Positions 3,212 through 53,941 of a stretch of 62,661 bases of DNA are shown piece after piece (the stretch's first letter is position 1; every line of letters starts with the position of its first letter). The DNA is from Lachnospiraceae bacterium (GTDB taxonomy: Bacteria; Bacillota; Clostridia; Lachnospirales; Lachnospiraceae), in contig JAFWWB010000007.1 in assembly GCA_017518185.1 (NCBI GenBank), positions 1 through 62,661 of the forward strand. Direction: 5' to 3'. The translations under genes and the position numbers were made by a program. The notes beneath the pieces were generated by a model. That model worked only from the letters and a program-made list of their open reading frames with translations. It did not search any database and had not been told where the DNA came from.

Positions 3212-3287
3212 GATCGACCTCGCATTGGAGTCGTATTTTCTGTTACCATTATTTCACGCATCACTATATATTGTATCAAAAGAACTC

Positions 3288-4718
3288 TCATAACGCAAGT
3301 ACAAGGTTTACCCATATCATCACGGTGCTGAAAAAGAAGGCAGCCAGGGCCCTGAGCCACAGGAGCATATTTATGCTCTTATCCGTGCCGTGTGTCCAGA
3401 AAGCGTTATCTTCCTGAACGGGAGCCGCTGCCCTCTCCGCTCCCGGCCGGTTTCTGTACATGGAATATACAAGCCATACTGCGAAGGCCGCAAAGGACAG
3501 GGTCCAGAAGTAAAAATACTTCTCATCGCTTATCCATGCCGTAAAAAGCCCGGGATCCACGAACTCCTTCTTTATCAGCATATCCGGAAGCATGCCTTCC
3601 ATGCAGTCAAAGGGTCCCCATAAGACTATGAAATAGGTCACCATCACGGAAAAGGTCCCTGCCATCTCCATCACTATCCTTATGAAGAGCCTGTCCCCGT
3701 CCATGAGCATGAGCAGCAGATAAAACGGAGTGATATACACTGCCCAGTAAGGCGCAGTCCTGGTAAAGAGCAGCACCGCCGTCATTGATAAGAGTTCCAT
3801 GAAAAAGATGTCACGGACACTCTCCTTCTCTTTCAACCTGAAATAAGCCCAGAAGACTATAGCTCCAAGGGCTATGAAGAGCAGCGGCACCTCGAAGCCC
3901 TCCCCGAGGGTGATGCGGCTCCTTGTGAGAAAGTCCATCTGTATCCAGGTCCTGGGCCTCCTGCTGGCCACGCCCACAGGGTCGGCAAGCTTAAATGGAA
4001 GGCTCACGATGAAGTTCAGCACAAAGGGTGAGACCAGCATGGCCCCGCTCTTAACAAGGTTTTTCTCCTTTGCCAGAATGACCGGCAGGAAGATGAGCCA
4101 GGCGAATTCCTTGAACTGCACCGCGAGTATAAAGAAAACGATGAACTTCCCCCATTCCTCCTTCAATATGAACAGAGTCGCCAGAAGTATAAGGTTAAGG
4201 CCGATTATATCCACCTGGGAAGCATTAAGCGCCACGCAGATGGTGAATATGGAGGAAAGGAACATGAACTTAAGCTGCCTGTTTTTCTCCTCATCAAGCC
4301 CGGCGATACTTCCGATCTTAGAAAGTATCCCGGCTGCCGTATACATTGCGATAAAGTGTATGGACTTGCCGTAGAGCCTGGCCGCAAAGTGATCCAGTAT
4401 ATTGCCGCCCGTGATCTTTTCTATGATGAAGAGAGGCAGCTGCCAGATGCCGTAAGCGATGTTCAGCAACATATCGTAATTTGCCACATGTATCATCTGC
4501 CCCGCATCCCGGGACTCCACGTTAAGGCCGTAATACTCAAAGAAGCGGCCCTGGATAAGAGCCTCCCACACGTTCATTCCCTGACGTATATTGGAATTAA
4601 GATCCGAATAATAGAAGGATAAAAAAGGTATAAGCAGGAGCAGAAAGAGTATCACATCCTCCTTCCGCGGCCTGAAGCCGGATAGCTTTACTGCATTGTC
4701 GGATCTTTGCCTGTCCAT
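3288..4718 (-). CDS. Polytopic membrane protein, GT-C-like, function unknown
   Basis: This 476-residue protein has about ten hydrophobic helices, starting with DVILFLLLLIPFLSFYYSDL and ending with ALAAFFFSTVMIWVNLVLAL. The large loop between the first two helices (about 45-75) and the scattered charged residues resemble integral-membrane GT-C glycosyltransferases or polymer flippases, but no diagnostic motif is visible. It is transcribed divergently from an acyltransferase and a DUF6311 protein. This fits a role in envelope glycan or lipid decoration, which is inference from neighbours. The start at 4718 is preceded by AAGGATGCGCG as ribosome binding site and by a good promoter at 4747-4775. 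I do not recognise the family. Confidence 0.7.
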   Translation of the reverse strand: MDRQRSDNAVKLSGFRPRKEDVILFLLLLIPFLSFYYSDLNSNIRQGMNVWEALIQGRFFEYYGLNVESRDAGQMIHVANYDMLLNIAYGIWQLPLFIIEKITGGNILDHFAARLYGKSIHFIAMYTAAGILSKIGSIAGLDEEKNRQLKFMFLSSIFTICVALNASQVDIIGLNLILLATLFILKEEWGKFIVFFILAVQFKEFAWLIFLPVILAKEKNLVKSGAMLVSPFVLNFIVSLPFKLADPVGVASRRPRTWIQMDFLTRSRITLGEGFEVPLLFIALGAIVFWAYFRLKEKESVRDIFFMELLSMTAVLLFTRTAPYWAVYITPFYLLLMLMDGDRLFIRIVMEMAGTFSVMVTYFIVLWGPFDCMEGMLPDMLIKKEFVDPGLFTAWISDEKYFYFWTLSFAAFAVWLVYSMYRNRPGAERAAAPVQEDNAFWTHGTDKSINMLLWLRALAAFFFSTVMIWVNLVLAL

Positions 4719-4746
4719 CGCGCATCCTTTTTTTCAGAATAGGGAT

Positions 4747-4775
4747 ATGATAACGCAGTTTGAACTTTTTAGCAA
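4747..4775 (-). promoter_or_regulatory. Promoter of the 3288-4718 membrane protein gene
   Basis: The minus strand reads TTGCTA (4775-4770), a 17-base spacer, then TATCAT (4752-4747), about 30 bases upstream of the ATG at 4718. Spacing and position are ideal for a sigma-A promoter. Confidence 0.6.
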
Positions 4776-34540: not shown

Positions 34541-35327
34541 TCTCGCTTGCAGAGTTGTTTCCGCTGGTGGAACCGTTCTCACTTGTGCTACCGTTTTCGC
34601 TAGTCGAGCCATTCTCGCTTGTGCTGCCGTTCTCGCTTGTCGAGCTGTTACCGCTGGTGCTGCCATTTTCGCTGGTGCTGCCGCCTTCCTTCTCGCCGCT
34701 GACAACAAAGCTTCCGTCACTATCTTTATCATTTACCACCACGATATCGGAGTTTCCTTCCAGATCCTCGGCAATGACCGTGATGCCGTCAATGTTATCG
34801 CCGCTTATAGTCACTCCGCCATCCTTATTCAGGGACACAGAGATGTCGCCGCTGTTATCGCCGGAGACAACGTAGGTCGGAAAATACCCCTCGGGCTGTG
34901 TATCGGAAGTAAGGCTGAGCTCGAAGCTTCCTTCATTGCCTTTAAGCGCCAAAGTACCATCTTCACTTATCTCAGTCCCTCCTGCTCTGTCCGCTTCGAT
35001 ACTGTAAAAACTTGAGACTCCATGGTGCGAAAAATCGAGACAGCCTTTCCCATTCACGGCCTTTATGCTGATAATATCGCCTGTCCCCTCAGGGATACAT
35101 ACAGTGACCGGCGAAAGTGCTCCCGCATCCCCAAATGCATCAAAGGAATAGCTGAGCGGCCCGGTCACTGTTTGGACCCTTCCCCTGCTGAAGGTACCCT
35201 CGGCCAAGCCGCAGGTGACTGTCAGATCGTCACGACCACATATGCATAGATAAACATTTTTCCTGTTTGCAAAATCAACGATCTCTTTACCATTTGGTAT
35301 AAGAAGGGCCGGATTCGAGCTGACCAT
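33429..35327 (-). CDS. C-terminal half of a frameshifted surface protein (beta-sandwich and beta-helix)
   Basis: This open frame of 632 codons has no signal peptide, and no ribosome binding site was identified at its first ATG. In fact the same frame continues upstream to about 35598 and encodes RILVYDSNCGKGGNSFNEEQ, the papain-like Asn region that follows the His of the 35510-37540 frame. The rest parallels residues about 830-1335 of the 27646-31653 protein: beta-sandwich domains, a Ser/Asn hexapeptide repeat, and the beta-helix module ending KYDYTGAKEF. It is therefore the 3' part of one gene spanning 33429-37540, broken by a one-base shift. It may be untranslated or a pseudogene fragment. 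Confidence 0.75.
   Translation of the reverse strand: MVSSNPALLIPNGKEIVDFANRKNVYLCICGRDDLTVTCGLAEGTFSRGRVQTVTGPLSYSFDAFGDAGALSPVTVCIPEGTGDIISIKAVNGKGCLDFSHHGVSSFYSIEADRAGGTEISEDGTLALKGNEGSFELSLTSDTQPEGYFPTYVVSGDNSGDISVSLNKDGGVTISGDNIDGITVIAEDLEGNSDIVVVNDKDSDGSFVVSGEKEGGSTSENGSTSGNSSTSENGSTSENGSTSENGSTSENGSTSGNNSASENGSTSGNEAENGKILLDGKEVASLTAAFKQMTDGNKDYKIELGCDVKGEKNLTIPKKAKSVTIIGNGHTVEVVGTKLTANAPLTLDNVHFKAVTRKNVPANFTINAKKELTITGGTEVSAKKYTLKALTLKADDSISANVLNCSELVLEDGAVLVAAAANKITVKKALKGEGGVIELFTGFKPIYLNGTVSGTVRFTGDVQADGTQLLKASAKKIDAKTLSTAFDVDAITENGVDTHLYYVSGGKACIFGEKISYNGKDYGVWKEAVDAMNADIKTAKSKGGKAAVESLSFNVVLNGDVNVNGAFKLPSKGYGSLTIEGNGHSMTFTGDVKLTGNTVFDDLVLKKVDKKGNPQKGSVKPGKYDYTGAKEF
34521..34682 (-). 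repeat. Nine-unit 18-bp tandem repeat (GSTSEN/GSTSGN)
   Basis: Nine 18-base units encode the hexapeptides GSTSEN, GSTSGN, SSTSEN and NSASEN between the beta-sandwich and beta-helix modules. The paralogue at 27646-31653 has only two units at the same place (about 28742-28780). This is a length-variable linker, probably changing by slippage or unequal recombination. Confidence 0.9.
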
Positions 35328-50321: not shown

Positions 50322-51083
50322 TCACACCGTCCCTTCTGCTGCCTGCTCCTCTTCGGCTGCAGCACTCTCTGCAGCGATGTCGGAAGCATCTACGTTCTCC
50401 TCACCCTGTCTTCCCTCGATGATGGCATCTGCCATACGGGAAACGATGAGCTTAACTGCCCTGATAGCGTCGTCGTTACCGGGGATCACATAATCCAGTT
50501 CCTCAGGATCGCAGTTGGTATCGCAGATACCGAAGAGTGTTATTCCCAGTGCATGAGCCTCCTGGATGCAGATGTGCTCCTTCTTGGGATCAACAACAAA
50601 GATGGCATCGGGGATGCGGGTCATCTCCTTGATACCGCCAAGGTTCTTCTCCAGACGCTCCCACTCTTTGCGGAGATTGATGACTTCCTTCTTGGGAAGC
50701 ACGTCAAAGGTCCCGTCCTGGGACATACGCTCGATGTCCTTGAGTCTCTTGATACGGGACTGGATGGTCTTGAAGTTGGTGAGCATACCGCCCAGCCATC
50801 TCTCATTTACATAGAACATACCGCAGCGCTCAGCCTCGCTTCTGATAGCTTCCTGAGCCTGCTTCTTGGTACCTACGAAGAGTACCGTACCGCCCTGTGC
50901 AGCGATGTCGGAAATTGCGTTGTACGCACTGTCCACCATGCCCACGGACTTCTGCAGGTCGATGATGTAGATCCCGTTGCGCTCCGTAAAGATGTAGGGA
51001 GCCATCTTAGGATTCCATCTCCTGGTCTGGTGGCCGAAATGTACGCCGGCCTCCAACAGCTGCTTCATTGAAATTACGCCCAT
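50322..51083 (-). CDS. rpsB: 30S ribosomal protein S2
   Basis: This 253-residue protein starts [20 protein letters not shown]. Family motifs are [32 protein letters not shown] and [21 protein letters not shown]-terminal acidic Ala/Glu tail follows residue 228. AACGGAGGTGTAAA precedes the ATG. The gene has its own promoter and a structured 5' leader of about 110 bases (51084-51197), consistent with S2 autoregulation as known for other bacteria. It is followed immediately by tsf. Confidence 0.98.
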
Positions 51084-51231
51084 TTTACACCTCCGTTATT
51101 GGGTTGTTCCTCCGCGCGCCAAAGCGGATATCCGCCACCGAAACGGCTCTGCGCGCGTGTTAAATTTCGCCCCGGCACTCACCGGGACAGACACAGTTGT
51201 GTATTTTAGCACAAGGGTGTCTGTTTGGCAA
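51084..51231 (-). promoter_or_regulatory. Promoter and structured leader of rpsB-tsf
   Basis: TTGCCA (51231-51226), 17 bases, TAAAAT (51208-51203) on the minus strand is a strong promoter. The about 110-base leader contains the palindrome ACACAACTGTGT at its start. A GC-rich stem pairs CGCGCGCAGAG with CTTTGGCGCGCG around an inner GCGGATATCCGC hairpin. This could be an S2-binding autoregulatory structure, which is inference from position and pairing. Confidence 0.6.
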
Positions 51232-51234
51232 GAA

Positions 51235-51501
51235 AAAAATAAAAACTCCCCGACAGTCATGTGTTCCGCGGCGCATCTCTATGGTTGGAACCGGACACAG
51301 ACAACCGGAAGCCCGGCCCTTGCGAAGGATCGGGGAGTTTGGTGTACCCGTTCCTAATTAACCGGGCCAAATGTTTGCATGGATTTCCGTCTGCTTCGTT
51401 GTCGTCAATCGCCGTACCGCCCGGTACGACTCATTCCTCCGCCTCGCAGAACGAAAACCCATTCTGCGCATTTGATCCAGTTATCAGGAAACGGGCACAC
51501 C
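51235..51501 (-). ncRNA. Structured RNA of unknown family upstream of rpsB
   Basis: This 267-base segment lacks a plausible gene. On the minus strand it starts at GGTGTGCCCG and folds as a long hairpin. The outer stem pairs 51501-51469 with 51373-51341 (33 bases each side, with G-U pairs and small bulges, ending CAAATG/CATTTG). An inner stem pairs GGGTTTTCGTTCTGC with GCAGACGGAAATCC, and the apical stem is CGTACC/GGTACG. A second domain is closed by an 11-bp stem (51330-51340 / 51243-51253) and followed by TTTTTATTTTTTT, an intrinsic terminator. A promoter at 51507-51535 would start transcription at the outer stem. The identity is unknown: 6S-like or an interspersed Lachnospiraceae RNA element are options. 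Confidence 0.65.
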
Positions 51502-51506
51502 AAAAC

Positions 51507-51543
51507 ATGATACAACAAAAGGGACGGTCTTTCAACCGTCCCC
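51507..51543 (-). terminator. Terminator hairpin of the zinc-ribbon gene that also carries a promoter
   Basis: The minus-strand stem GGGACGGT / ACCGTCCC (51542-51535 and 51528-51521) with loop TGAAAG is followed by TTTTGTTG, ending the gene at 51566. TTGAAA (51535-51530) in the loop and TATCAT (51512-51507), 17 bases apart, form a promoter for the downstream RNA. Confidence 0.7.
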
Positions 51544-51565
51544 TTCAAAAGTGTATTTTTTTAAT

Positions 51566-53941
51566 TTACTGCACTGTTACGTAATCCCCGTAGCCGTCAT
51601 CCACGCCCTGCAGGGTGACCTGTATCGAGTAGTCAGAAGGTGCATAAATTGTGATGCCGTAGCAGCCGTACTTATCCAGATCCGACAAGACCTCGATCCA
51701 GTCTTCCTTTCCCATGATCTCCAGGGCTGCTTCCAGGATAACGTTACTGTCGTAAGAGACCGCATCGCTGACAAAGACATAGTTCTGCAGCTGACTAAGG
51801 GAATCAAAATAACCGGGATCGTTTACCACCTCGGGATCCATCATGGCGGTGAGCACGGCTGTATGTATCGTATCGCAGTATTGTGTTGCTGCAGAGGTCT
51901 TTGACTTATTTATATACTTTCCCATGCCTCCGAAGCCGCTCACCATGTTCATAAGGCCCCTTATGGTGTCCGCATCGGGATCGTCCAGAGCATCCTCAAG
52001 GCCCTCTACGATCTCATCCGGGAAACCGGCCTTTTCAAAGTTAGCTATGAACTTGTCGGCATCGATATCCTCTGCATAGTCGTCCAGATCGTCATCATCC
52101 TCGATCTCCATGCACTTCTTCTCTGCGGGCTTTGCCACGTCTGCCTTGCCGTTCTTCATGGTAAGCTGCGCTGTGAGCACATCCTTCTTTCCGTCCAGTA
52201 CGTTGATATCGAATTCTGCGCTCTTTGTGGTTGTCTCGACGGTCAGCTCCAGTGTATAATCCTCAAAGCTGCCGAGCCTGGATCTTCCCGTGGATTTACT
52301 GAGCTGCTCCATCTCGATGATCACGGTACCCTTGATATTGCCCTTCTTCCAGGACTCCATATCGAAATCCTTCAGCTCGAGCTCCATCACTTCAGTGCCG
52401 CCCTGTTCAAAGGTGAGGGGGCCGCTGTACTTTCCACCGGAGATCTTTCCCTTTCCTCCGATCTTCATGTAATCATTGCCGTTACGCTCCATGGTCATGG
52501 TCATGCCGCGTTCCCCACCGCTCTCAGCATAACCGAAGAGCAGGCGCTGGTCATCGGTCTCGAGCTCCACAGCCTGGGCGATGCCTCCCTTGCCCACGTA
52601 AAGGCGCAGAGTACCGGCTGAACCCTTCTTTCCGAAATCAAGGTTATCGGCGTTCTTCTTGTATCTTTCAAGAGAAGCTTCGATGTCATCCCAGGCATCA
52701 TCGCCGTCCTGATCCATGGATTCCGCGATAGCTTCCACCATCTTCTGAAGATCCTTATCGTCAAGCATCTCATCGCAGAAGCCGTTCATGCATTCGGAGA
52801 GCATATCCTCGTCAAGCTCCATCTCCAGCGTAAGGAGATCCTGCTTCACGCCTTCAATCTTAAGAGTTTCCTTACTCTTGTCCACATCGGTGATGCCCTT
52901 AGCGCCTGCAGTCAGATACTTCATCCACATCTTGTTGAGCTTGTTGCCGTCGGGAAGGGCCTTGCCCAGTTCAGCCATCTTTTCCAGGCTTTCCTGCATC
53001 TGCTCCAGGGTATCCTTTCCGCCCAGTATCTCAGCGTCCTGCATCATAAAGGTCTCGTTGAGTTCCGGTATCCTCGAATAGATATAGCCTTCATCCGAAT
53101 CGATAACATTCTCTAAAGTGGCCAGCTTTGTCTTGCCGGAGCTTAAGGTCACCGTAACACCGGACAGATCCCCTTTGTGATCCATCTTCATCGAGAAGCT
53201 GAGATCCTTGAGAGCATCCAGGTCGTCCACTCCGGTCTGGTCCGCTATCTCATCGATCATATCATCGGAGAGCTTTACGCTGCCTTCCATGGTAAAGCCT
53301 GCGTTATCGATATTATTGATATTGTCATAGACCATGTCGTTATAAACGCCGGCCAGATCGTTGGCGTTAAGCGTATTCTTTATGACGGTCTGGGCGTATT
53401 TGGGCGGTGACTGGAAGGTTCTTGCAATGAGATCCCCCCACAGTCCCCTGGTAAGGAAGAGCACAACGGCAATGGCCGCAATGATGCCGAGCACGATAAA
53501 GATCCCTGCTCCGCCTTTTTTCTTCTTTTTCTGTTCCGCAGTCTGCTGGTAAACATTTCCGCTGCCGCCGTTGGGATCCATACGTCTCGGATTAAAATAG
53601 TTGGGATCCTGGCCGGGCCTGGAGATATTCTGCTCCGGTGCCGCTGCTCCCTGAGCGCCGTTATAAGCCCCCTGGTTGATGGCCGGCTGGGGTGTGACCG
53701 GTTCGGTGCCCAGCATGGGATTTGCCGTCTCAACATAGCTGCTGGGGCCTCCCACTGTCTCCTGTGTTCCGCCGTTCTCCTGTCCTGCCGGTGCCGGATT
53801 CGCAGGAGCCTCATTAGCCGGGCTGTCCTGTCCTGCAGCCGCGACCGGTTCTCCCGCAGCTGCCGCTGCCAGCGGATTTCCGCAGGTCTGGCAGAACTTG
53901 TCGCCGTCGTCATTGTTTGCGCCGCATTTTGCACAGATCAT
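51566..53941 (-). CDS. Zinc-ribbon, single-TM protein with large extracytoplasmic region
   Basis: This 791-residue protein has a zinc ribbon (MICAKCGANNDDGDKFCQTC) at 1-25 and a Pro/Gly/Gln/Asn-rich low-complexity linker (26-135). One membrane helix follows at about 145-167 (AGIFIVLGIIAAIAVVLFL). The region of about 600 residues after it is rich in Asp/Glu/Lys and resembles lipoprotein-like beta domains that often follow such ribbons, e.g. VDDLDALKDLSFSMKMDHKG and TLRLYVGKGGIAQAVELETD. Function is unknown. It has a strong promoter (53982-54010), RBS AAAGGGAGGGA and its own terminator, so it is probably a single-gene unit. The C-terminus, YSIQVTLQGVDDGYGDYVTV, shows no sorting signal. Confidence 0.78.
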   Translation of the reverse strand: MICAKCGANNDDGDKFCQTCGNPLAAAAAGEPVAAAGQDSPANEAPANPAPAGQENGGTQETVGGPSSYVETANPMLGTEPVTPQPAINQGAYNGAQGAAAPEQNISRPGQDPNYFNPRRMDPNGGSGNVYQQTAEQKKKKKGGAGIFIVLGIIAAIAVVLFLTRGLWGDLIARTFQSPPKYAQTVIKNTLNANDLAGVYNDMVYDNINNIDNAGFTMEGSVKLSDDMIDEIADQTGVDDLDALKDLSFSMKMDHKGDLSGVTVTLSSGKTKLATLENVIDSDEGYIYSRIPELNETFMMQDAEILGGKDTLEQMQESLEKMAELGKALPDGNKLNKMWMKYLTAGAKGITDVDKSKETLKIEGVKQDLLTLEMELDEDMLSECMNGFCDEMLDDKDLQKMVEAIAESMDQDGDDAWDDIEASLERYKKNADNLDFGKKGSAGTLRLYVGKGGIAQAVELETDDQRLLFGYAESGGERGMTMTMERNGNDYMKIGGKGKISGGKYSGPLTFEQGGTEVMELELKDFDMESWKKGNIKGTVIIEMEQLSKSTGRSRLGSFEDYTLELTVETTTKSAEFDINVLDGKKDVLTAQLTMKNGKADVAKPAEKKCMEIEDDDDLDDYAEDIDADKFIANFEKAGFPDEIVEGLEDALDDPDADTIRGLMNMVSGFGGMGKYINKSKTSAATQYCDTIHTAVLTAMMDPEVVNDPGYFDSLSQLQNYVFVSDAVSYDSNVILEAALEIMGKEDWIEVLSDLDKYGCYGITIYAPSDYSIQVTLQGVDDGYGDYVTVQ

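Follow-up and report, generated by a model that had tools for sequence, protein, structure and literature searches.

The minus-strand stretch between positions 51235 and 51501 of the window, by which we mean the whole 62,661 nucleotides of Lachnospiraceae DNA analyzed here, probably consists of two unrelated units: an RNA gene of ~100 nt (domain 2) and a MITE-like hairpin located at its start (domain 1). In the initial annotation, the stretch was proposed to be one RNA of ~265 nt. The comparisons do not support this, since each domain has homologues of its own. A DNA search with the whole stretch gave a match in 13 of 60 relatives (own genome included), and the matches split by domain: query bases 11-172 (window 51500-51339) found copies with 96-97% identity in the own genome, on contigs C19, C58, and C8, and the 3' part was found once in each of ten further genomes of the genus, where the surroundings differ. 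The annotation had also spoken of an unassigned structured RNA with its own promoter and terminator, and of a possible repeated RNA element; both descriptions stand, but not as descriptions of a single unit. It had further expected the stem pairs to be preserved in homologues, and pairing is indeed maintained in domain 1 and in domain 2.

The coordinates, the strand and the two domains that were originally reported all match the sequence. The outer stem (GGUGUGCCCG/CGGGUACACC) with the inner stem and apical hairpin can be seen in the sequence and in the minimum free energy (MFE) structure, and the same holds for the 11-bp stem (AAACUCCCCGA/UCGGGGAGUUU) followed by a T-run. The latter had been read as a terminator; the stem and the T-run are present, but the stem is also P1, the helix that closes the second RNA as a whole. 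The fold of the minus strand of 51235-51501 has a predicted energy of -125 kcal/mol, against a mean of -87.5 for shuffled sequences (z -6.96; 0/200 shuffles as stable). The features are located as follows:

51507..51535, minus strand: sigma-70-type promoter, TTGAAA-17-TATCAT (consensus scan, 10/12; TATAAT at the equivalent place in 29/38 homologues)
51501..51502, minus strand: left border dinucleotide TG, which is TA in C19, C58, and C8 (comparison of own-genome copies)
51342..51500, minus strand: domain 1, MITE-like hairpin copy, GTGTGCCC...GGGTACAC (96-97% identical copies on C19, C58, and C8, plus fragments)
51460..51469, minus strand: second conserved internal loop, 5' side, GCGCAGAATG (alignments; found in Firmicutes elements)
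51397..51443, minus strand: conserved core with GGCGGAGGAATGAG, apical hairpin, GATTGACGACAACG, and tandem G.A pairs (alignments, 106 distinct elements, model matches)
51373..51384, minus strand: second internal loop, 3' side, decayed, CATGCAAAC versus CAGGCAAGC in the other own copies (copy comparison)
51340..51341, minus strand: right border dinucleotide CA, which is TA in C19 and C58, C8 being without that end (comparison of own-genome copies)
51238..51340, minus strand: domain 2, predicted structured RNA gene of ~100 nt (match to models R1 and R3; covariation)
51330..51340, minus strand: 5' strand of the closing helix P1, AAACTCCCCGA (fold and alignments)
51321..51324, minus strand: P2 loop CGCA, complementary to the P4 loop (loop comparison)
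51272..51275, minus strand: P4 loop TGCG, complementary to the P2 loop (loop comparison)
51243..51253, minus strand: 3' strand of P1, also the terminator stem (fold and alignments)
51233..51245, minus strand: T-rich tail after P1 (sequence; at least five T in eight in 28/38 homologues)

The site that had been proposed as a promoter is present at 51535-51507 and ends ~5 nt ahead of the outer stem; the consensus scan gave two such sites in 601 bases, where 0.4 are expected. The -35 box (51535-51530) sits in the loop of a hairpin that resembles the terminator of the upstream gene (window 51521-51543), and therefore promoter and terminator overlap. The neighbors are as annotated: the downstream gene encodes ribosomal protein S2 (PF00318, 2.3e-103), and the protein encoded upstream carries a zinc ribbon at its N-terminus. 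A Pfam scan of two of the short ORFs overlapping 51235-51501 found no match. Between the RNA and rpsB, a further promoter-like site is found at window 51203-51231 (TTGCCA-17-TAAAAT, with TG before the -10). Elsewhere on the minus strand of the window, similar repeats rich in serine, asparagine, and glycine surfaced as chance matches in coding stretches (34565-34685 and 28776).

The alignments show the region 51500-51342 as one of several copies of a hairpin element. The own genome holds three full copies, one nearly full copy and three fragments (on C27, C8, and C38). Relatives in the Firmicutes have two internal loops in common, GGCGGAGGAAKGAG...CTGACGACAACG and GCGCAGNATG...CAGNCAAGC; their stems differ yet pair. 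In 64 element sequences, changes on both sides occur at 36 of 37 pairs, with 570 such cells against 154 in shuffled controls in an alignment fitted to the model. The element model R2 matched 10/35 genomes of the genus and 25/295 of the order, with up to 12 matches in G018, the most in the genus. In the latter genome, the copies on C58, C14, C46, C122, and C130 are located at contig ends, like assembly-breaking repeats. Genome G318 has two places (C77:86275-86501 and C14:59662-59888) at which two copies stand back to back, one on each strand and separated by two bases.

A strict element pattern identified at least 119 stretches in named genomes. Among the matches listed are Lachnospiraceae, with Blautia, Roseburia, and Butyrivibrio, Peptococcaceae and relatives of Selenomonas, as well as actinobacterial hosts, namely two Sciscionella and one Streptomyces. 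A BLASTN search with a composite query found nine Streptomyces plasmid records with 77-81% identity (E 3e-5 to 5e-3). When R2 was applied to seven actinobacterial loci (L151, L174, L212, and L234-L237), E values of 1e-13 to 2e-10 were obtained; six of the seven match the core and inner stem only (approximately positions 22-106 of 127). No match to the element was found in the phage records searched, and a 16-base pattern gave six stretches in viral contigs. An Rfam search over 16 element loci gave one match, a TPP riboswitch, more than 1 kb off. It lies in Roseburia inulinivorans (L136), with the riboswitch and the element copy more than 1 kb apart (3264-3389 and 4716-4762).

Domain 1 has most of the MITE features that were tested. 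The elements are short and non-coding, with a median palindrome of 163 bp in 61 elements (a rough figure, below the 500 bp that bounds MITEs), they carry terminal inverted repeats (GTGTGCCC/GGGTACAC in the window) and there are several copies per genome, as in the own genome and, with up to 12, in G018. TA is present near both ends in 42/61 elements and CTAG in 17/61; these counts rely on rough end-finding, in which some rows overshoot or stop short, including the one derived from the window (L001). A target-site duplication was found at one site, in Streptomyces atratus, and the window copy is without one. The filled site in S. atratus (CP109382) reads GAATTA[ GACCGACC...GGTCGGTC ]TTAGGC, and the element is absent from the empty sites in CP108277 (GAATTAGGC) and CP109328 (GAATTAGCAC). 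The filled and empty sites show TTA to be duplicated if the ends are perfect, or TTAG if they are imperfect, and thereby the insertion of a Streptomyces relative of domain 1 with a short target duplication. Short target duplications of the TTA type are a product of DDE transposases. The borders of domain 1 presumably resemble the targets of the IS5 family (TNA or YTAR/CTAG). A DDE-type transposase acting in trans would have moved domain 1. Searches with the element end in G043 and in the own genome identified no mobilizing transposase: in G043, 30 of 40 matches can be grouped into 15 pairs with a spacing of 137-145 bases, and within the own genome the only perfect matches to the end are those at the known copies, next to two unpaired sites with one mismatch (control hits 29 and 31).

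Which constraint keeps the arms paired can be addressed through their mismatches. A G.T on one strand reads A.C on the other, and a role of the duplex only therefore predicts equal counts. In 61 dissimilar elements, isolated mismatches in the inner arm are G.T in 45 cases and A.C in 5 (p 4e-9), though the inner excess is partly one common wobble; in the outer arm the numbers are 58 and 30 (p 0.004), with 29 elements leaning to G.T and 12 to A.C. Earlier forms of the count gave 126 versus 45 and 112 versus 40. The statistics ignore relatedness, and the arm limits were set after an earlier count. The elements come from a set of 106 distinct ones, kept if they had at least 22 arm pairs in the RNA fold, which leans slightly to G-U, and near-duplicate or short rows were removed from it (44 in the second of the earlier counts, 45 in the final one). 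As G.T exceeds A.C in the arms, the fold of one strand seems to be selected, and we lean toward such selection acting most simply on RNA; single-stranded DNA may serve as well.

A less probable, though still serious, alternative is that the arms are kept paired by palindrome correction at the DNA level, or by a role of the duplex in transposition. This would fit arms that are wholly different between element families yet paired, and the sole resolved insertion is a DNA-level event. Similarly, the orientation of the elements is unbiased with respect to flanking genes: 27 are co-directional, 26 opposite, and 18 and 13 mixed, in a count from 105 elements that left out 13 at the edges of contigs and 8 within long ORFs. 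Palindrome correction, however, should wipe out the conserved mismatched core, and the excess of G.T over A.C in inner and outer arms is not predicted by a role of the duplex. Selection on the fold of one strand is the reading that we prefer.

For domain 2, the comparisons show a predicted compact RNA of ~100 nt, in which P1 doubles as terminator stem and encloses three inner helices. Among the first eight sequences, changes on both sides were found at 11/34 predicted pairs. A MAFFT alignment of 11 sequences, not fitted to a model although the structure was predicted from that same alignment, has 97.2% of cells pairing and both-side changes at 14/33 pairs. With 39 members, in an alignment that was fitted to the model, 95.0% of cells pair and both partners have changed at 25/33 pairs; cells with two-sided change number 251, where shuffled controls average 75.8, and the covariation score is 0.560, compared to at most 0.112 when the partners are slid. 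These 39 are the window, nine members of the genus, G137, and 28 others.

A loop-loop contact between P2 and P4 is likely on the basis of these sequences. The P2 loop has at least three bases complementary to the end of the P4 loop in 35/39 members and four in 26/39, with sets such as GGGA with UCCC, CGC(A) with (U)GCG and, in G137, AAG with CUU. The observed mean complementarity was reached by 0/1000 shuffles, which ignore relatedness. In this count the P2 loop of L302 was taken too long, and some bases on the P4 side fall in columns modeled as paired inside P4. The complementarity is limited to two bases in L282, L293, L295, and L301.

The model R1 found one copy of domain 2 in 13/35 genomes of the genus and matched 2/196 genomes of the order. 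R3, built from the R1 set plus G137, a member of another genus, gave exactly one match in each of 45/397 genomes of the family Lachnospiraceae (15 of these matches are absent from the 39-member alignment) and, in a class-wide sample, in 2/341 genomes, both from the same family. The counts for domain 2 are lower bounds, because the family searches scored few (approximately 10-20) first-look candidates per genome. An exact pattern occurs in 17/397 genomes, all among those found with R3. The searches and alignments together show domain 2, as a candidate RNA, to be carried as a single copy by some members of the family, with pairs kept while the sequence changes.

By sequence, domain 2 has the own promoter and own terminator that would be expected of an independent non-coding RNA gene. 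Immediately 5' of the RNA, TATAAT is present in 29 of the 38 homologues outside the window, compared to 1.2% of shuffled flanks, and at least five of its six bases are present in 36/38, compared to 17.8%. A T-run follows P1 in 28/38 and a -35 box with at least four matches is found in 20/38, both counted without a control. In three of the 13 R1 carriers (G020, G026, and G031; loci L006, L007, and L008) the 3' half is replaced by a common other sequence with further hairpins, and the RNA is therefore dispensable in them. These losses and the low class-wide count weigh against the reading proposed here.

We still favor a trans-acting or housekeeping RNA. On balance, we expect domain 2 to be a free, stable RNA made from its own promoter that acts in trans, and not as a leader for the gene that follows; it would bind a protein or another RNA via the invariant P4 region. 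That domain 2 is instead a leader or attenuator acting in cis on the following gene is unlikely, although members of the genus do tend to precede one common gene, which fits a cis role there. The gene, which we take to be serine-acetyltransferase-like, lies downstream in at least six of nine intact genus members other than the window (L041, L043, L045, L046, L047, and L048) and directly downstream of the broken RNAs of L006-L008, and P1 is a terminator, as attenuators have. In the window, however, rpsB is next, with the second promoter-like site in between. Moreover, the nearest flanking genes of the 39 loci form small clusters only (4, 4, 3, 3, and 2 members), and the downstream neighbor is on the opposite strand in 19/37 loci, a rough count given the small ORFs. 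The trans role of domain 2 is the reading that we retain.

In contrast to the suggestion of a 6S-like RNA in the initial annotation, neither domain looks like 6S: RF00013 gave no row in the region 51050-51620 at E up to 10, and a weak full-length candidate is located elsewhere in the own genome (C15:64530-64712, 28.9 bits against a cut-off of 46.4). 6S RNA is a rod of ~190 nt with a central bubble. Similar to domain 2, it is a stand-alone structured RNA with promoter and terminator; domain 2 is half as long, with a different, branched fold and no Rfam match. That domain 2 replaces 6S RNA, or is a much-changed 6S, is very improbable, even though carriers have fewer 6S matches (3/13 R1 carriers versus 14/22 other genomes of the genus with RF00013 at E<=0.001, the RF00013 cut-off being reached by five of the 35); we read this difference as shared ancestry. 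The whole window gave nothing at the Rfam gathering scores, and with the Rfam 15 covariance models no row overlaps the domain 2 RNA in the window and in sets of five and seven relatives. Rows for sroB, rpsB-sRNA, mir-703, and SNORA5 in the region are weak and far under their cut-offs. The domain 2 RNA belongs to no Rfam 15 family.

There is equally little room for a single structured RNA of ~265 nt with two domains: in the window, the stretch does lie between one promoter and one terminator, and its predicted fold is very stable, but in every other genome found the homologues of the two domains stand apart, the own genome has domain 1 copies elsewhere without domain 2, and the hairpin ahead of domain 2 is absent in all other 38 aligned members. 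With two units, 51235-51501 can be described as a fusion. In the window copy, 51501 has changed from A to G and 51341 from T to C; these are partner positions and the pair is therefore kept. A TA target would place the insertion of domain 1 at about +1 of the RNA gene. The copy itself seems to be a relic, as is suggested by its decayed second loop. Domain 1 lies between the -10 box and the domain 2 RNA, so the transcript should start with a hairpin of ~160 nt, followed by the RNA, and the product would be either a fusion of ~265 nt or a cleaved RNA of ~100 nt.

Small repeats with comparable properties have been described in other bacteria. ERIC, RUP, Correia/NEMIS, and BOX are presented as elements of 100-200 bp with inverted ends, several with TA borders, whose transcripts form long stem-loops and influence the transcripts that they join (PMC2229807, PMC3049150, PMC10969869). 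On these descriptions, domain 1 is likewise a small MITE-type repeat with inverted ends. In contrast to the named repeats, each of which is there tied to one genus or group, the core of domain 1 is found in Firmicutes and Actinobacteria, and this non-Watson-Crick core is fixed while arms and ends are unrelated or exchangeable. Fusions of repeat elements to RNA genes are mentioned in PMC2229807; the fusion in the window concerns a different element, which sits at the start of an RNA gene outside Rfam. Among the candidate structured RNAs of human microbiomes, 250 of 3161 are given as palindromic (PMC8040213). These candidates are likewise orphan structured RNAs of gut bacteria and may overlap with domain 1 or domain 2. 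Among the publications listed by the literature searches, we recognized none as describing domain 1 or domain 2.

Taken jointly, we tentatively propose, at somewhat less than even confidence, that a Lachnospiraceae RNA, present once per genome, fixed in shape by contact between two loops and with a core job in trans, exists alongside mobile hairpins that cross phyla, keep a tandem G.A core on one strand and have arms and ends freely replaced, and that both are undescribed. If true, the structure of RNA or single-stranded DNA, and not a gene, is what mobile hairpins keep. Domain 2, with its promoter, covarying fold, and putative loop contact, makes a strong case for a new Rfam family, and its hosts belong to a dominant family of the gut. 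Domain 1 suggests that some mobile hairpins retain a structured core across phyla while swapping arms and ends, and it allows a test of whether gene-less elements spread by virtue of RNA or single-strand structure. The fusion in the window is a natural experiment on the effect of a 160-nt hairpin on the start of a small RNA.
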